Assembly: GCA_016932315.1 (NCBI GenBank)
Contig: JAFGDD010000014.1
Span: 1 to 64,000, forward strand
Source: Candidatus Woesearchaeota archaeon
Lineage (GTDB): Archaea > Nanobdellota > Nanobdellia > Woesearchaeales > SM23-78
Direction: 5' to 3'
Length of the DNA: 64,000 bases
The position numbers and the translations under genes are program-made. Below the pieces are notes generated by a model, which did not search any database, was not told where the DNA came from, and saw nothing but the letters and a program-made list of their open reading frames with translations. Positions 5,816 to 53,505 of this stretch are shown piece after piece; position 1 is the stretch's first letter, and every line of letters starts with the position of its first letter.

Positions 5816-7522
5816 ATGTTCAAGTTAGAGGTTGCTAAGCTCTTAGCCAAAGCTACGAGTCTGAAAGAATCCGAGATCGAGCCTCTCATAGAAGTGCCTC
5901 CTTCGCAGGAGCTTGGTGATTTTGCTTTTCCTTGCTTTATTCTTGCAAAGAGTTTGAAGAAGGCTCCGAATATTATTGCGCAGGAGCTTGCAAATAAAAT
6001 CAAGCCTGATTCTAAGTCTTCTATTTCAGATGTCAAGGCTGTCGGTGCTTATCTTAATTTCTTTGTTAACAAGAGCAAGCTGTCAGAAGGCGTTATCAAG
6101 GACATTATTAACTGCGGAGCTTGTTATGGCAGCTGGCCTTTGAGAAAAGAAAAGGTTATGGTTGAATATCCTGCTCCTAATACTAACAAGCCTCTTCATT
6201 TAGGCCATGTAAGGAATATTCTATTAGGCAATTCTATCTGTAACATCCTGGCCTTTGCAGGCTTTCAAGTCATCCCTGTTGACCTGGTTAATGACAGAGG
6301 AGTTCATATTTGTAAGTCTATGCTGGCTTATCAAAAGTGGGGTAAGAACAAGGAGCCTGACAAGAAGTCTGATCATTTTGTAGGTGATTTTTATGTATTG
6401 TATTCCAAGGAGGAGAAAGAGCATCCTGAGATGGAAGATGAAATCCAGGATTTGCTGAGAAAGTGGGAGGCTGGTGACAAGGAGACTGTTGCTTTGTGGA
6501 ATAAGATGAGGAAGTGGTCTCTTGACGGCTTCAGGCAGACTTATGCGTTGTTTGATGTGCATCACAAAAAAGTTTATTATGAGTCTGAAATTTATCAGCA
6601 CGGAAAAGAGCTTATCCTTGAAGGATTGAAAAAAGGATTGTTCAAGAAGGATGAGAAGGGCGCTGTTGTTGCTGACTTGGAAAAAGAAGGTTTAGGAACA
6701 AAGGTTCTTCTGAGAGAGGACGGAACAGGAATCTATATCACCCAGGACTTGTATCTTGCAAAATTAAAGTTTGATGAGTTCAAGATGGACAGCTCAGTAT
6801 ATGTTGTGGCCAACGAGCAAATATATCATTTCAATGTTTTGTTCAAACTGCTTGACATGCTCGGATTTCCATTTGCAAAGAACTGCCACCACCTGGCTTA
6901 CGGCATGATATCGCTGCCAGAAGGAAGGATGAAAAGCAGGGAAGGCACAGTTGTTGATGCTGATGATCTAGTCAAGGAAATGGAAGCTGAAGCAGAGGAA
7001 GAGATAAAGAAGCGACACAAGCTCGATGCAAATGAGGTGGAGAAAAGAAAAAAGATTATAGCAATGGGAGCATTAAAGTTCTTCATAATAAAATACGATC
7101 CAATGAAAGACTTCACCTATGACCCTAAGGAGAGCATTAGCTTTGAGGGAGAGACCGGACCTTATGTGCAATATGCTCATGCAAGAATCTGCTCAATATT
7201 CAGGAATACTAAGAAGTTTGATGCTGAAAAAGCTGATAAGATAAAGCCTGAGTTCAGCCATGAATTAGAGTTCAAGCTGATAAAATTACTCGCTGATTTC
7301 AAGAACATAGTGAATGATGCTGCTGAGCAGTACAAGCCAAGCCTTGTTGCAAGATACGCTCTTGAGCTAGCCCAGGCTTTTAATGAGTTCTATCATGAAT
7401 GCCCTGTATTGAAAGCAGATAAGAAATTAATGGAGTCAAGATTAGTGTTGATATTCTGCGTGAAGCAAGTATTAAAGAACTCTCTTGACTTGCTAGGAAT
7501 AAAAGCACCGGAAGAGATGTAA
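5816..7522 (+). CDS. argS: Arginyl-tRNA synthetase
   Basis: The protein has 568 residues and charges tRNA-Arg in the cytoplasm. It has an N-terminal Add-1-like domain (about 1-110), the class I signature PNTNKPLHLGHVRN (121-134, the HIGH motif), a KMSKS equivalent RMKSREG, and ETGPYVQYAHARI introducing the helical anticodon-binding domain. Length and order fit ArgRS well. The start follows a TATA box at leaderless spacing. Codon use (GCT, AAG, CCT) differs from the A-rich cluster just upstream. An intron-bearing tRNA-Arg gene lies about 4 kb downstream. Confidence 0.97.
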   Translation: MFKLEVAKLLAKATSLKESEIEPLIEVPPSQELGDFAFPCFILAKSLKKAPNIIAQELANKIKPDSKSSISDVKAVGAYLNFFVNKSKLSEGVIKDIINCGACYGSWPLRKEKVMVEYPAPNTNKPLHLGHVRNILLGNSICNILAFAGFQVIPVDLVNDRGVHICKSMLAYQKWGKNKEPDKKSDHFVGDFYVLYSKEEKEHPEMEDEIQDLLRKWEAGDKETVALWNKMRKWSLDGFRQTYALFDVHHKKVYYESEIYQHGKELILEGLKKGLFKKDEKGAVVADLEKEGLGTKVLLREDGTGIYITQDLYLAKLKFDEFKMDSSVYVVANEQIYHFNVLFKLLDMLGFPFAKNCHHLAYGMISLPEGRMKSREGTVVDADDLVKEMEAEAEEEIKKRHKLDANEVEKRKKIIAMGALKFFIIKYDPMKDFTYDPKESISFEGETGPYVQYAHARICSIFRNTKKFDAEKADKIKPEFSHELEFKLIKLLADFKNIVNDAAEQYKPSLVARYALELAQAFNEFYHECPVLKADKKLMESRLVLIFCVKQVLKNSLDLLGIKAPEEM

Positions 7523-48787: not shown

Positions 48788-49110
48788 CTCTCTTTAACCA
48801 TGTTTCCAACAGTAGAATGCACCAAGTTTACGCAAGATAGCTGTTCTCACAACTATATTTTAAGCCCTGATACATTCATATGTCGTCAACTAATCGTTTA
48901 TCCCTCATAGTCAAGTTTTATTTATAAAGTTTTCGCAGTATGGGGAGGTGATTGGGTGATGATTTTTTTATAAGGCTTAAAAACTCTGAATTCGCTATAA
49001 TTAACCATTTTTAATTTTTGAGTGATTACAACATCATTTTTTAAATAGTCAATATTATCATGTATATTATATAATTAAATTATTAGTTCTGCCTGAAAGA
49101 AAAAAAGGTT

Positions 49111-49128
49111 ATGCGGGGAGAAGGATTC
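49111..49128 (-). repeat. Duplicated 3' end of tRNA-Leu
   Basis: The 18 bases at 49111-49128 are identical to 49208-49225, the acceptor 3' strand, 3' T stem and part of the T loop of tRNA-Leu. The copy lies 97 bp downstream of the gene in its direction of transcription. Only about 79 bp, with a short AACCTTT/AAAGGTT hairpin, separates the copies. It may be an integration scar or a slipped duplication. Confidence 0.75.
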
Positions 49129-49233
49129 CCACCAACCTTTAGCGCAAAGGTTGACGAAAAAATGCGGCATGCGTTCGCTTCGCTCACTTAGCCCCATAAA
49201 AAAGAGTATGCGGGGAGAAGGATTCGAACCCTC

Positions 49234-49337
49234 GCAGGCACTACTCCAAGGTTGGCACCTTGAATTGCCAAGGCCAAGCCTTGTCTACTCCAAGACTAGC
49301 GTCTTGTCCTGCCAAGACCTACATCTTGTCTAAGCCA
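49234..49337 (-). other. Expanded variable arm of tRNA-Leu: four tandem hairpins
   Basis: Between the anticodon stem and T stem, where about 14-20 nt are normal, lie about 104 nt. A possible variable stem GGC/GCC encloses four hairpins of about 24 nt, with stems AAGA/TCTT, CAAGAC/GTCTTG, CAAGGC/GCCTTG and CAAGGT/ACCTTG, mostly joined by GGAGTA or GGCA. The last stem pairs differ but remain complementary. It could be an unspliced arm or a third intron. Confidence 0.7.
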
Positions 49338-49343
49338 ACAGGT

Positions 49344-49366
49344 CTCTTAGACTAGAGACGCTGTCT
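49344..49366 (-). other. Anticodon-loop intron (37/38) of tRNA-Leu
   Basis: 23 nt. The central 4-bp helix CUUA/UAAG, 3-nt bulges GG|A and AG|A, and a distal GAC/GUC helix form a standard bulge-helix-bulge. Removing it gives the loop CUUAGGA with anticodon UAG. Confidence 0.88.
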
Positions 49367-49382
49367 CCTAAGCCTGTCCCGT

Positions 49383-49402
49383 AAAGCCACCTTTTTTTGG
49401 TT
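49383..49402 (-). other. Probable 20-nt D-loop intron of tRNA-Leu
   Basis: GGCC pairs with GGCU (one G-U pair), flanked by bulges AA|A and UU|A, and ACC pairs with GGU around an A7 loop: a minimal bulge-helix-bulge. Its removal leaves the usual tRNA-Leu D loop GGCCAAA. An unspliced long D loop is the alternative. Confidence 0.6.
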
Positions 49403-49496
49403 TTGGCCGCTCCGGCATCCCCGCATTTACCAGGTTACCTATTAGTGTGCTCTGCTGGTTTAAAAAATTTACTAAATGAAAACATTTAAATATTAA

Positions 49497-49733: not shown

Positions 49734-51667
49734 ATCATAACGAGAACATAAGAAAACTTGAAGAAACCCTAAACGAAGTAATCAGATTTACAAACGAGCT
49801 AGATGAAAAGCTGGCAAGAAACGAAATCGACGGCATCCATTATCATGTCTTGCTGAATGAAAAACTCAGCGGAAGAACAAAAGAAGAAATCATCAGCCAC
49901 ATCGAGCAAAAAATCAAAGAAGAAAAAAACAAAGCACGAGAGGGCAAAAAGAAGACTATAACAATCAGCGCAGCAGCTATCATACTAATAATAATAGCAA
50001 TAATAGGAATAATATACCCTAATCCAGGCGCATTAACAGGCTACACCACAGCAACCAAGCAAATAGAACAAAAAATTGATTATAACAGAGTATTTGAACA
50101 CTACACAGAAACACAACTAGACCTAACAAATCTAACGAGCCTCAAGATATCCGGAACACTAGAAGGAACAGGAGCAAAAATCAAACTAAGAATAAACGGA
50201 ACAGAATACCTGATAGCGCAAATAACCAATCCGACAGAACAACCAAGCCAAATAACAGGAATGGTAATAGAAGAAGAAACAACACAATACACAATAACAA
50301 CAGACAAAACAACATACACCCTCGGAGAAACAGCAACAATAACAATAACACCAACAACAAACAACCAATCACTATATGTTTCCTATGGCGAAGAAACACA
50401 CAAACTAGAAACAAACACATACAAACCAGAAACCACAGGAAACTATCAGATCATAGCACTAATAGTACTACCAGAAGACATCATAAGGATAAACACAAAC
50501 TTCACAGTAACAAGCAAAAATAATTCTATTTTTGCAGTTCCAGAAAAGTCAAACTTTTCTGAAACAGAAACAACCACAACAGAAGAAACGCCAAAAGAAA
50601 CAAATGAAACAAACCAAACAACACCAACAAACGAAACAACACCAACAGAAAACACAACAGTCAACGAAACAAACCAAACCAATGAAACCACACCAACAGA
50701 ACCAACAACAAACGCATTCGTATTCGAAAACCTATGCACAGAAACATGCACGCTAACAGAAAACAGTAACCCAGTATTGATAGTTGAACTGGATGACAAC
50801 ACAACACTAACCATAAACACACTAACAACAACGCAAACCAAAGAAAACCTTGCGCCAGAACAAAACAAAAACATACCCGACATAACACTCGCAAAAGGAG
50901 AATCAAGAACAATCAACCTAAACAACTACTTCAAAGACCCAGAAGAAGAAACAATACAATACGACATAAACAAAATACCAGAAATAACAACCACAATAAA
51001 CCAAAACGAACTAACAATAACATCACAAAACCTCGGAAAATACACAGCTTACATATACGCAACAGACGGAAACAAAATGATAGTAAGCAACACATTCACA
51101 ATCACCATAACAGAAACAACAGAAGAAACAACCACAGAAACAAACCAAACAACAAACGAAACAACAGGACTGCCAATAAGCAATGAAACCGAAATTGTTC
51201 TCACTCCAATAATTGATTGCGGCAATCCTAACCCCAACAACAGGCCTGTTGAGTGCATGATAGGACAGGAAGACAAGTACTTCAAGGACAAATCCATCTT
51301 CATAGAAAACCTTGACAAGACGCAAGTCGCAAGAATAACTGCATTCGGCAACATGGTGATAAGAGGAAAGCTATACGAGAACTCAATCTATGCTCCGAGC
51401 AGCAGGGACTTCAGGGTTAATTACTTCATCGATGATGGAGAGACAGAAGTGGTGAGCGCATGGATAGACACAGCAACAGGAGACTTGCATCTAAGAGGCA
51501 CAGCGCATGAAGAGCAGTTCAGCATCATCCCACCAAGCACTGGAGCATTCATCATCCAGAACAGGAAAGGAACCAACCTTGGATTCATAGACAAGATTAC
51601 AGGAGATTTGTATTTGAGAGGCAATCTGATACAAGAGCAGCCTGAAGAAAACGTGATAACACAATGA
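49730..51667 (+). CDS. Large membrane-anchored, Thr-rich surface protein
   Basis: 645 residues. The N-terminus (1-85) is cytoplasmic and helical, then comes a membrane helix (about 83-105, ISAAAIILIIIAIIGIIYP). Outside are beta domains, a Thr/Asn/Glu linker (about 280-335, with many NETT/NQTT repeats likely O- or N-glycosylated), another low-complexity Thr run near 465-485 and a C-terminal module with repeats ending in TGDLHLRG and TGDLYLRG. Codons in the linker are almost all A/C-rich (ACA, AAC, GAA). It is followed by ATGA overlap with the next exported protein. Confidence 0.75.
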   Translation: MNHNENIRKLEETLNEVIRFTNELDEKLARNEIDGIHYHVLLNEKLSGRTKEEIISHIEQKIKEEKNKAREGKKKTITISAAAIILIIIAIIGIIYPNPGALTGYTTATKQIEQKIDYNRVFEHYTETQLDLTNLTSLKISGTLEGTGAKIKLRINGTEYLIAQITNPTEQPSQITGMVIEEETTQYTITTDKTTYTLGETATITITPTTNNQSLYVSYGEETHKLETNTYKPETTGNYQIIALIVLPEDIIRINTNFTVTSKNNSIFAVPEKSNFSETETTTTEETPKETNETNQTTPTNETTPTENTTVNETNQTNETTPTEPTTNAFVFENLCTETCTLTENSNPVLIVELDDNTTLTINTLTTTQTKENLAPEQNKNIPDITLAKGESRTINLNNYFKDPEEETIQYDINKIPEITTTINQNELTITSQNLGKYTAYIYATDGNKMIVSNTFTITITETTEETTTETNQTTNETTGLPISNETEIVLTPIIDCGNPNPNNRPVECMIGQEDKYFKDKSIFIENLDKTQVARITAFGNMVIRGKLYENSIYAPSSRDFRVNYFIDDGETEVVSAWIDTATGDLHLRGTAHEEQFSIIPPSTGAFIIQNRKGTNLGFIDKITGDLYLRGNLIQEQPEENVITQ

Positions 51668-53505
51668 TGCAAAAAAATAATTTGCAAAAAATGATAAAGC
51701 AAACGCTCTGGCTAGTGCTCACTATAATAATATTATCTAATCTTGCAATGTTGGCATCTGCTGAGAATGATCCAGGCCACGACACATTATATATAGAGCA
51801 GACAGGAGACAGCGAGCTCACAGGAATGTTCAACGTCAGCGAGAACTTCACAGTAAAAGGAGGAAATGCATTCCTGAAAGACAACCTTGACATCTTCTTC
51901 AACGGCATCACGCCAGACTTGACTAATAGAAATGTAATATCAGGCTCAGCCACAGACTTATACCTTGACGCGAAATCAAGCGGCAATATTTATCTGAATG
52001 CTTTCAACAACGGAGGCAACATCTACGTCGGAGGAGCAGGCGACACAGTCAACCTTAACGTTACAGGAGCTCTTTATGTTGGAGGATTAGACTACTCTGC
52101 TACTAAAGTTTGCTTAGCCAACGGAAGCCATTGCCCGGCAGCAATAAGCGGAGCAAACCTCACAGCAAACAGCGCAACCTCAGGATATATTGTACAATTC
52201 CAGAATGCAAGCGTACTAAACAACTCAGTAATTTATCAGAGCGGAAGCAACATAGGAATAGGAACAACAAGCCCAAACGTAACACTACACGTAAACGGAA
52301 GCATAAACGTAACAACAGGATACGACGTATGCATAGAAGACGGAACATGCCTGAGTACAGTAAGCGGGGGAGACGCAAGCGAAAGAACACTAAACGCAAC
52401 AACAAACCTCTTGAATACTACAATACAAACAGCAGCAACAAACATAAGCGCAATAAACACAACAGTAACAACACTAGCAACAAACACATCAGCAATAAAC
52501 GACACAAGAAAAGCAGGAGACGACGCACTAAACGTTACAATAGTCCAAATAAACGGAAACCTAACACAAGCAGCAAGCAACATAAGCGCACTAAACACAA
52601 GCAAAGGAGGAACAGGAAACTGCGCAGAAGGAACACTAGTACAAAACACCACAACAACAGGAGTAGAATGCGCAGCAGCAGGTGGCGCCGACGAAGTTGG
52701 AACATTAACTAATACTTATGTGTGCTACACAGACGGAGACGCAGTCTTGTGCGACGACGCAGGAATGACATTCACAGCAGCAACCAACACAATAACAGCA
52801 GGAAACATCACAGTAACAACTAACATAACAACAGGAAACTTATCAGTAACCACACTAATAACAGCAGGAGCACTTAACTGCACTGACTGCATAGACGGAG
52901 CAGACTTAGCAGACACTGTTGAATTGGATGCTATTCTTGCAATCAATGGCTACAATGTTACTTTCAACACATCAGTCCTGCATGTTGACGTGACAAATGG
53001 AAGAGTAGGAGTAGGAACAGCAGCACCGGGCTATGCTCTAGAAGTTGTCGGCAGCGGAACTACGGTTATCAATCTAAAAGATAGTGCTGATAGCGTCGAG
53101 ACAATAATTTCAGCCCAAGCAGATAAAGGAAGAATAGGCACCAGAAGCAACCACGACTTGAATATAGTAACGAATAACGTTGCAAAGATGATTATAGCAA
53201 AATCAGGCTATGTTAGCATAAACACCACATCACCAGATGCTACGCTGGCAGTAGCAGGAAATCTAAGCGTTACCGGAACAACCAACAGCAGCATAGACTC
53301 AGGAACACTATTCATAGACGCAACCAACAACAAAGTAGGAGTAGGCACTGCCGCCCCTGATTCTTTGCTTGATGTGCAGAGCAGCAATATTGCCACTCAA
53401 TTAAGAGTCAGCTATGATGACACATATTATTCCAACATAAGCGCTGACGCAACAGGCAACCTTACTATAAAGGCTGTTAATCATGTAATTATTGATTTAA
53501 GTTAA
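51664..53505 (+). CDS. Secreted beta-repeat surface protein (tail-fibre-like)
   Basis: 613 residues. The signal peptide is near 10-33 (LWLVLTIIILSNLAMLASA). The body has repeated segments IGIGTTSPNVTLHVNG, VGVGTAAPGYALEVVG, a SINTTSPDATLAVAG form and VGVGTAAPDSLLDV, the pattern seen in phage tail fibres and S74-type adhesins. The central part (about 235-400) is Asn/Thr/Ala-rich and helical-repeat-like. No protease S74 domain follows. Overlap of the ATG with the preceding stop makes it part of the AbrB-led operon. Confidence 0.75.
   Translation: MMQKNNLQKMIKQTLWLVLTIIILSNLAMLASAENDPGHDTLYIEQTGDSELTGMFNVSENFTVKGGNAFLKDNLDIFFNGITPDLTNRNVISGSATDLYLDAKSSGNIYLNAFNNGGNIYVGGAGDTVNLNVTGALYVGGLDYSATKVCLANGSHCPAAISGANLTANSATSGYIVQFQNASVLNNSVIYQSGSNIGIGTTSPNVTLHVNGSINVTTGYDVCIEDGTCLSTVSGGDASERTLNATTNLLNTTIQTAATNISAINTTVTTLATNTSAINDTRKAGDDALNVTIVQINGNLTQAASNISALNTSKGGTGNCAEGTLVQNTTTTGVECAAAGGADEVGTLTNTYVCYTDGDAVLCDDAGMTFTAATNTITAGNITVTTNITTGNLSVTTLITAGALNCTDCIDGADLADTVELDAILAINGYNVTFNTSVLHVDVTNGRVGVGTAAPGYALEVVGSGTTVINLKDSADSVETIISAQADKGRIGTRSNHDLNIVTNNVAKMIIAKSGYVSINTTSPDATLAVAGNLSVTGTTNSSIDSGTLFIDATNNKVGVGTAAPDSLLDVQSSNIATQLRVSYDDTYYSNISADATGNLTIKAVNHVIIDLS

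Follow-up and report, generated by a model that had tools for sequence, protein, structure and literature searches.

A candidate intron of tandem hairpin units in the variable arm of a tRNA-Leu(UAG) gene from a Woesearchaeota-related archaeon

Archaeal tRNA introns and the present locus

In Thermoproteales and other archaea, tRNA genes are known that carry several introns each, at noncanonical sites and with relaxed bulge-helix motifs (PMC4033280, PMC4090602, PMC3218864, PMC8450103), and a maximum of three introns per tRNA has been stated in a review (PMC4033280). The relaxed forms of the bulge-helix-bulge (BHB) motif used in archaeal splicing include HBh' and BHL (PMC6379350). Introns in the variable (V) arm have been described in the intron-rich genome of Caldiarchaeum subterraneum (PMC3293823), and intron transposition among tRNA genes, with similar introns in several genes of one genome, has been reported for Thermoproteales (Fujishima et al. 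2010, as cited in PMC4090602). Here a stretch of 64,000 nucleotides from a Candidatus Woesearchaeota archaeon (contig JAFGDD010000014.1, assembly GCA_016932315.1; called the window below) was analysed, in which the variable arm of a tRNA-Leu gene is interrupted by an array of hairpins. Sequence comparison makes it very probable that this insert is an archaeal intron, noncanonically placed in the loop at the tip of the arm and enlarged by tandem duplication.

The locus resembles the noncanonical BHB/BHL introns in the presence of several introns per gene, in its relaxed bulge-helix motifs and in sites that include the D arm and the variable region; unlike them, it contains tandem units each with a terminal splice-like signal, and it belongs to a Woesearchaeota-related lineage. 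V-arm introns are shared with C. subterraneum; the passages of that account drawn on here mention neither tandem duplication nor internal splice signals (PMC3293823). That a genome has similar introns in several of its tRNA genes recalls the transposition in Thermoproteales, as far as that work is summarised in the citing paper, but copies of the window type are limited to one position in one isotype, tRNA-Leu, so that gene conversion or gene duplication would be enough to explain them. Multiple, noncanonical and variable-arm introns of archaeal tRNAs are thus already known, whereas a search of open-access papers turned up neither tandem duplication of a tRNA intron nor a comparable wealth of introns in Woesearchaeota, which is weak evidence of absence.

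A tRNA-Leu(UAG) gene with three insertions

The gene, from a Woesearchaeota-related archaeon, occupies 49424..49209 on the minus strand (GCGGGGATGCCGG...TCCCCGCA), where 216 nt, including three introns, encode a mature tRNA of 84 nt. It was reported by neither ARAGORN nor Rfam, both of which found nothing in the window. Exon 1 (49403..49424) comprises the 5' strand of the acceptor, the D stem and the D loop as far as GGCCAA, and is followed by a D-arm intron of 20 nt (49383..49402) with a GGCC/GGCT helix, AA^A and TT^A bulges and an inner ACC/GGT helix. Exon 2 (49367..49382; ACGGGACAGGCTTAGG) holds the anticodon TAG and precedes a canonical 37/38 intron of 23 nt (49344..49366; CTTA/TAAG helix, GG^A and AG^A bulges, inner GAC/GTC helix). 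Exon 3 (49330..49343; ACCTGTTGGCTTAG) provides the 3' strand of the anticodon stem and the 5' half of the variable arm, after which the variable-arm insert of 89 nt (49241..49329) runs through two tandem units with four hairpins, at a site that is empty (GGCTTAGTGCC) in a number of relatives and in two other Leu genes of this genome. Exon 4 (49209..49240) consists of TGCC, the T arm, the 3' strand of the acceptor and the discriminator A. The four tandem hairpins, here on the minus strand, had been noticed in a preliminary description, which overlooked the D-arm and 37/38 insertions; the arm length of about 104 nt given there corresponds to the 89 nt strictly inserted (49329..49241) plus an ordinary arm of about 15 nt.

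When all combinations of deletions were tried, ARAGORN called a tRNA-Leu(tag) only once all three inserts had been deleted, and no subset sufficed. The product spliced in silico is a standard tRNA-Leu(UAG) of 84 nt, with the anticodon loop CUUAGGA and the arm GGC-UUAGU-GCC, and it is one base apart (83/84 identical) from the intronless gene of a genome of the same order (G060). So flawless a tRNA speaks against a decayed pseudogene that gathered repeats, as well as against a repeat arising from assembly error, and the same is true of the pairing retained by the hairpins and of the matching two-unit array found in synteny in the separately assembled congener G002. With a partial copy of the tRNA 3' end just downstream (49101-49133), and with the window gene as the only Leu(UAG) candidate seen, albeit in an incomplete assembly, such a reading is not entirely without basis, and we consider it very improbable. 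A group I intron, with its conserved catalytic core, is not supported for the variable-arm insert: no Rfam match was obtained at the gathering threshold, and the insert is just 89 nt long.

The downstream copy at 49101-49133 takes the form of a short hairpin. Such hairpins are frequent beside the tRNA-Leu genes of this genus, repeating the gene's own 5' end when upstream of it or its 3' end when downstream (the window gene plus L033, L034, L035, L036, L038, L045, L046 and L049). Two large surface-protein-like ORFs adjoining the tRNA contain low-complexity, Asn/Thr-rich repeat tracts (50279-50713 and 52421-52869). In the whole genome, which is 91% complete, only 14 matches to RF00005 were obtained (L051-L064), most of them 100-142 nt long; its tRNA set is intron-rich and mostly missed by standard models.

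The hairpin array and its counterparts in relatives

Read on the minus strand, the four hairpins are CAAGA-TGTAGG-TCTTG (49328..49313), CAAGAC-GCTA-GTCTTG (49306..49291), CAAGGC-TTG-GCCTTG (49283..49269) and CAAGGT-GCCA-ACCTTG (49262..49247). A direct repeat of 35 nt (74% identical, 44-nt spacing) groups them into two double-hairpin units, each with a terminal GAGTAG: unit 1 (45 nt, 49285..49329), with the first two hairpins, and unit 2 (44 nt, 49241..49284), with the last two and without counterpart in the syntenic gene of G005. The end of unit 1 carries a complete 3' splice-like signal (H=4, inner=6). Folding of the array region gave a z-score of -2.4, with 1 of 200 shuffles equally good. 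The suggestion in the preliminary description that substitutions preserve base pairing was borne out across 12 homologous units, in which 143 of 144 cells of the local hairpins were paired (99.3%) with 10 two-sided changes; the values for pairing, two-sided cells and covariation were reached by none of 500 shuffles.

The units can also be folded into one long hairpin each, pairing the first CAAG with the last CUUG. Fewer cells are paired in this fold (90.6% versus 99.3% for the local hairpins), and as the sole fold it was rejected because its covariation is the weaker; it is, however, more stable than the local hairpins in 10 of the 12 units, and it is in this conformation that the splice motif is displayed. 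Both folds may be in use. In the two-hairpin units, none of the four strands departs from CAAG or CUUG; this would fit both pairings mattering, though recent descent could also account for it.

The empty variable-arm site reads GGCTTAGTGCC in many relatives and, within the window's own genome, in Leu(CAA) and Leu(UAA). The occupied site reads GGCTTAG-[insert]-TGCC, with insert lengths of 31-36, 43-48 or 89-90 nt; a gene on contig C22 of G002 and L072 are among the loci counted here. The named contigs with inserts are metagenome-assembled genomes labelled Woesearchaeota, DPANN or Euryarchaeota. At the syntenic locus, where the neighbouring proteins are identical in kind, the insert measures 45 nt in G005 (contig C15), 89 nt in the window and 90 nt in G002 (contig C5), which is the length polymorphism that had been proposed as a check. 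The possibility had also been raised that relatives would have a normal arm and that the present assembly was collapsed or chimeric; normal arms do occur in relatives, but the matching array of G002 contradicts an assembly fault. Among matches from the pattern scan, one on a Pseudodesulfovibrio contig (L067) was discarded as a chance match without a tRNA, and many GGCTTAG matches were set aside as ordinary genes matching through the GGCTTAG of the anticodon loop.

In unit-to-unit comparisons, unit 2 of the window is nearest to unit 2 of G002 (6 differing columns), while unit 1 differs in 7 columns from unit 1 of G002 and in 4-5 from the lone units present in G004 and G005; between the two units of the window itself, 13 columns differ. 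Because of these distances, which are between short sequences, the duplication probably predates the split from G002 and was followed by loss in G005. The modularity of the tandem hairpins, and the recurrence of one unit in several genes of a genome, might instead recall a mobile hairpin element or a CRISPR/REP-like repeat inserted into the arm. All ten exact matches to the unit core in seven congeneric genomes, however, fall within the variable arm of a tRNA-Leu gene and share one insertion site to the nucleotide, which leaves an element of this kind barely conceivable.

Several of the related genes have further insertions. The syntenic tRNA-Leu(UAG) gene of G002 (contig C5, ~85,480-85,860, minus strand; L034/L159) is 277 nt long although it encodes a tRNA of 84 nt: it is interrupted in the D arm, at 37/38, in the variable arm (by 90 nt) and in the T loop, and deletion of all four inserts yields a tRNA-Leu(tag). 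In a groundwater DPANN archaeon (JACOYC010000024.1, ~6,400-6,640; L072), the variable-arm intron of a tRNA-Leu gene measures 36 nt and its inner helix is compensated; the gene also seems to have a T-loop insert of 12 nt. In G003 (contig C29, ~73,600-74,600, minus strand; L158), a 253-aa ORF, judged by eye to resemble a LAGLIDADG homing endonuclease, precedes the 3' half of a tRNA-Leu gene that has inserts in its variable arm and T loop; a search of this 81%-complete assembly for the matching 5' half found none, and a split gene, a huge intron or a remnant is possible.

Predicted splice junctions, endonuclease and proposed excision

At the junction of the variable-arm insert, exon GCTT can pair with intron GAGT, followed by the bulges AG^A and AG^T and the inner helix CAAG/CTTG; judged by sequence, two 3-nt bulges 4 bp apart lie at the exon-intron junctions, as in a BHB. 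Of the other junction registers that were tried none was accepted, as only GGCUUAG^A / G^UGCC yields both helices. Shuffled sequences were as good in 46 of 5,000 cases. The same junction rule is obeyed by the D-arm intron (29 of 5,000 shuffles as good) and by the 37/38 intron (45 of 5,000), so that each of the three introns is matched in fewer than 1% of shuffles; in the syntenic gene of G005, the inner helix of the D-arm intron has compensatory changes and reads ACTT/AAGT.

The junction was compared over 19 loci, comprising the window and 18 others with an insert at exactly the same nucleotide, with bulges and helices counted from the insert boundary at which the mature arm is recovered. The 5' bulge is AG^A or AG^G and the 3' bulge AN^U. 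The inner helix starts one base inside the insert, and its first four positions are paired in 76 of 76 cells, with two-sided changes among CAAG/CTTG, CTGA/TCAG and CAAC/GTTG. The helix between exon GCUU (once ACUU) and insert GAGU, GAGC or AAGC has all four pairs in 17 loci, and three of four in the two loci with GAGA. The 19 sequences are related, and these pairing counts are not probabilities. The layout corresponds to the relaxed forms HBh' and BHL (PMC6379350).

Folding predictions were less uniform. In the unconstrained fold of 49340..49230, the GCUU:GAGU helix, the AGA bulge and the inner helix all form on unit 1, so that unit 1 alone may already count as an intron for the endonuclease; when the flanks were of other lengths, its exon:intron helix had a probability of ~0.3. 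In most copies the probability of this helix is predicted to be below 0.05, the ordinary arm stem outcompeting it, and it is high only in L074 and L072; the predicted fold does not contain the terminal splice motif of the complete 89-nt array. The weakness of this predicted helix is the main weakness of the intron proposal.

In favour of a retained array, which would make the molecule an extraordinary class II tRNA whose enlarged arm has a structural or regulatory role, one can cite the covariation and stability of the hairpins and the thermodynamically weak exon:intron helix. Against it, the arm is of ordinary size in two further Leu tRNAs of this genome, insert length ranges from 0 to 90 nt across orthologs and isoacceptors, and a single LeuRS would have to charge arms differing by up to that many bases. 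The insert also splits the loop (UU-A-G-U) right after A-G, a leucine identity element in Haloferax, where the variable-arm loop bases A47c-G47d help to set leucine identity (PMC9976931), and the D-arm and 37/38 inserts need splicing anyway. Of the two outcomes offered in the preliminary description, the giant class II tRNA is thus highly unlikely, while the variable-arm intron is strongly supported by the restoration of a tRNA on excision, the empty sites, the junction shared by 19 loci and the two further introns of the gene.

A splicing endonuclease (PF01974) is encoded in 37 of the 39 genomes searched, including five of seven congeners; the gene was absent from the 91%-complete assembly of the window's own genome and from G001 (74% complete). 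Among solved structures, the enzyme of a relative is nearest to the alpha subunit of Nanoarchaeum equitans, whose enzyme is of the (alpha-beta)2 type with broad specificity, single-subunit endonucleases being reported to handle relaxed motifs poorly (PMC6379350); no beta subunit was identified here.

For the variable-arm intron, the most likely cleavage sites lie directly 3' of GGCUUAG, in the bulge AG^A, and directly 5' of UGCC, in the bulge AG^U; the endonuclease would find them through the exon GCUU:intron GAGU helix beside the CAAG/CUUG inner helix, and an RNA ligase would then join the exons to give the ordinary loop UUAGU. The array probably arose from a single-hairpin intron (31-36 nt in relatives) through a two-hairpin unit of ~44 nt, and the presence of a complete splice signal at the end of each unit may be why duplication has been tolerated. 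Removal of unit 1 would recreate an identical 5' site ahead of unit 2, so the array could leave stepwise or at once. Somewhat short of an even chance, in our judgement, is the more specific proposal of recursive tRNA splicing, in which each ~44 nt unit is a complete intron, with an exon of zero length between them, and unit 1 is excised before unit 2.

Implications for archaeal tRNA introns

If recursive splicing holds, arrays of tRNA introns would be able to grow and shrink freely by tandem duplication. The natural 0-, 1- and 2-unit alleles of one intron site, with one and two units at a single syntenic locus, bear on how archaeal tRNA introns originate and lengthen. The blank ARAGORN and Rfam results in the window show why such tRNAs escape annotation. 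The four insertion positions of the G002 ortholog exceed the published three-intron maximum (PMC4033280), and the Woesearchaeota-related lineage is indicated as a hot spot of tRNA introns.
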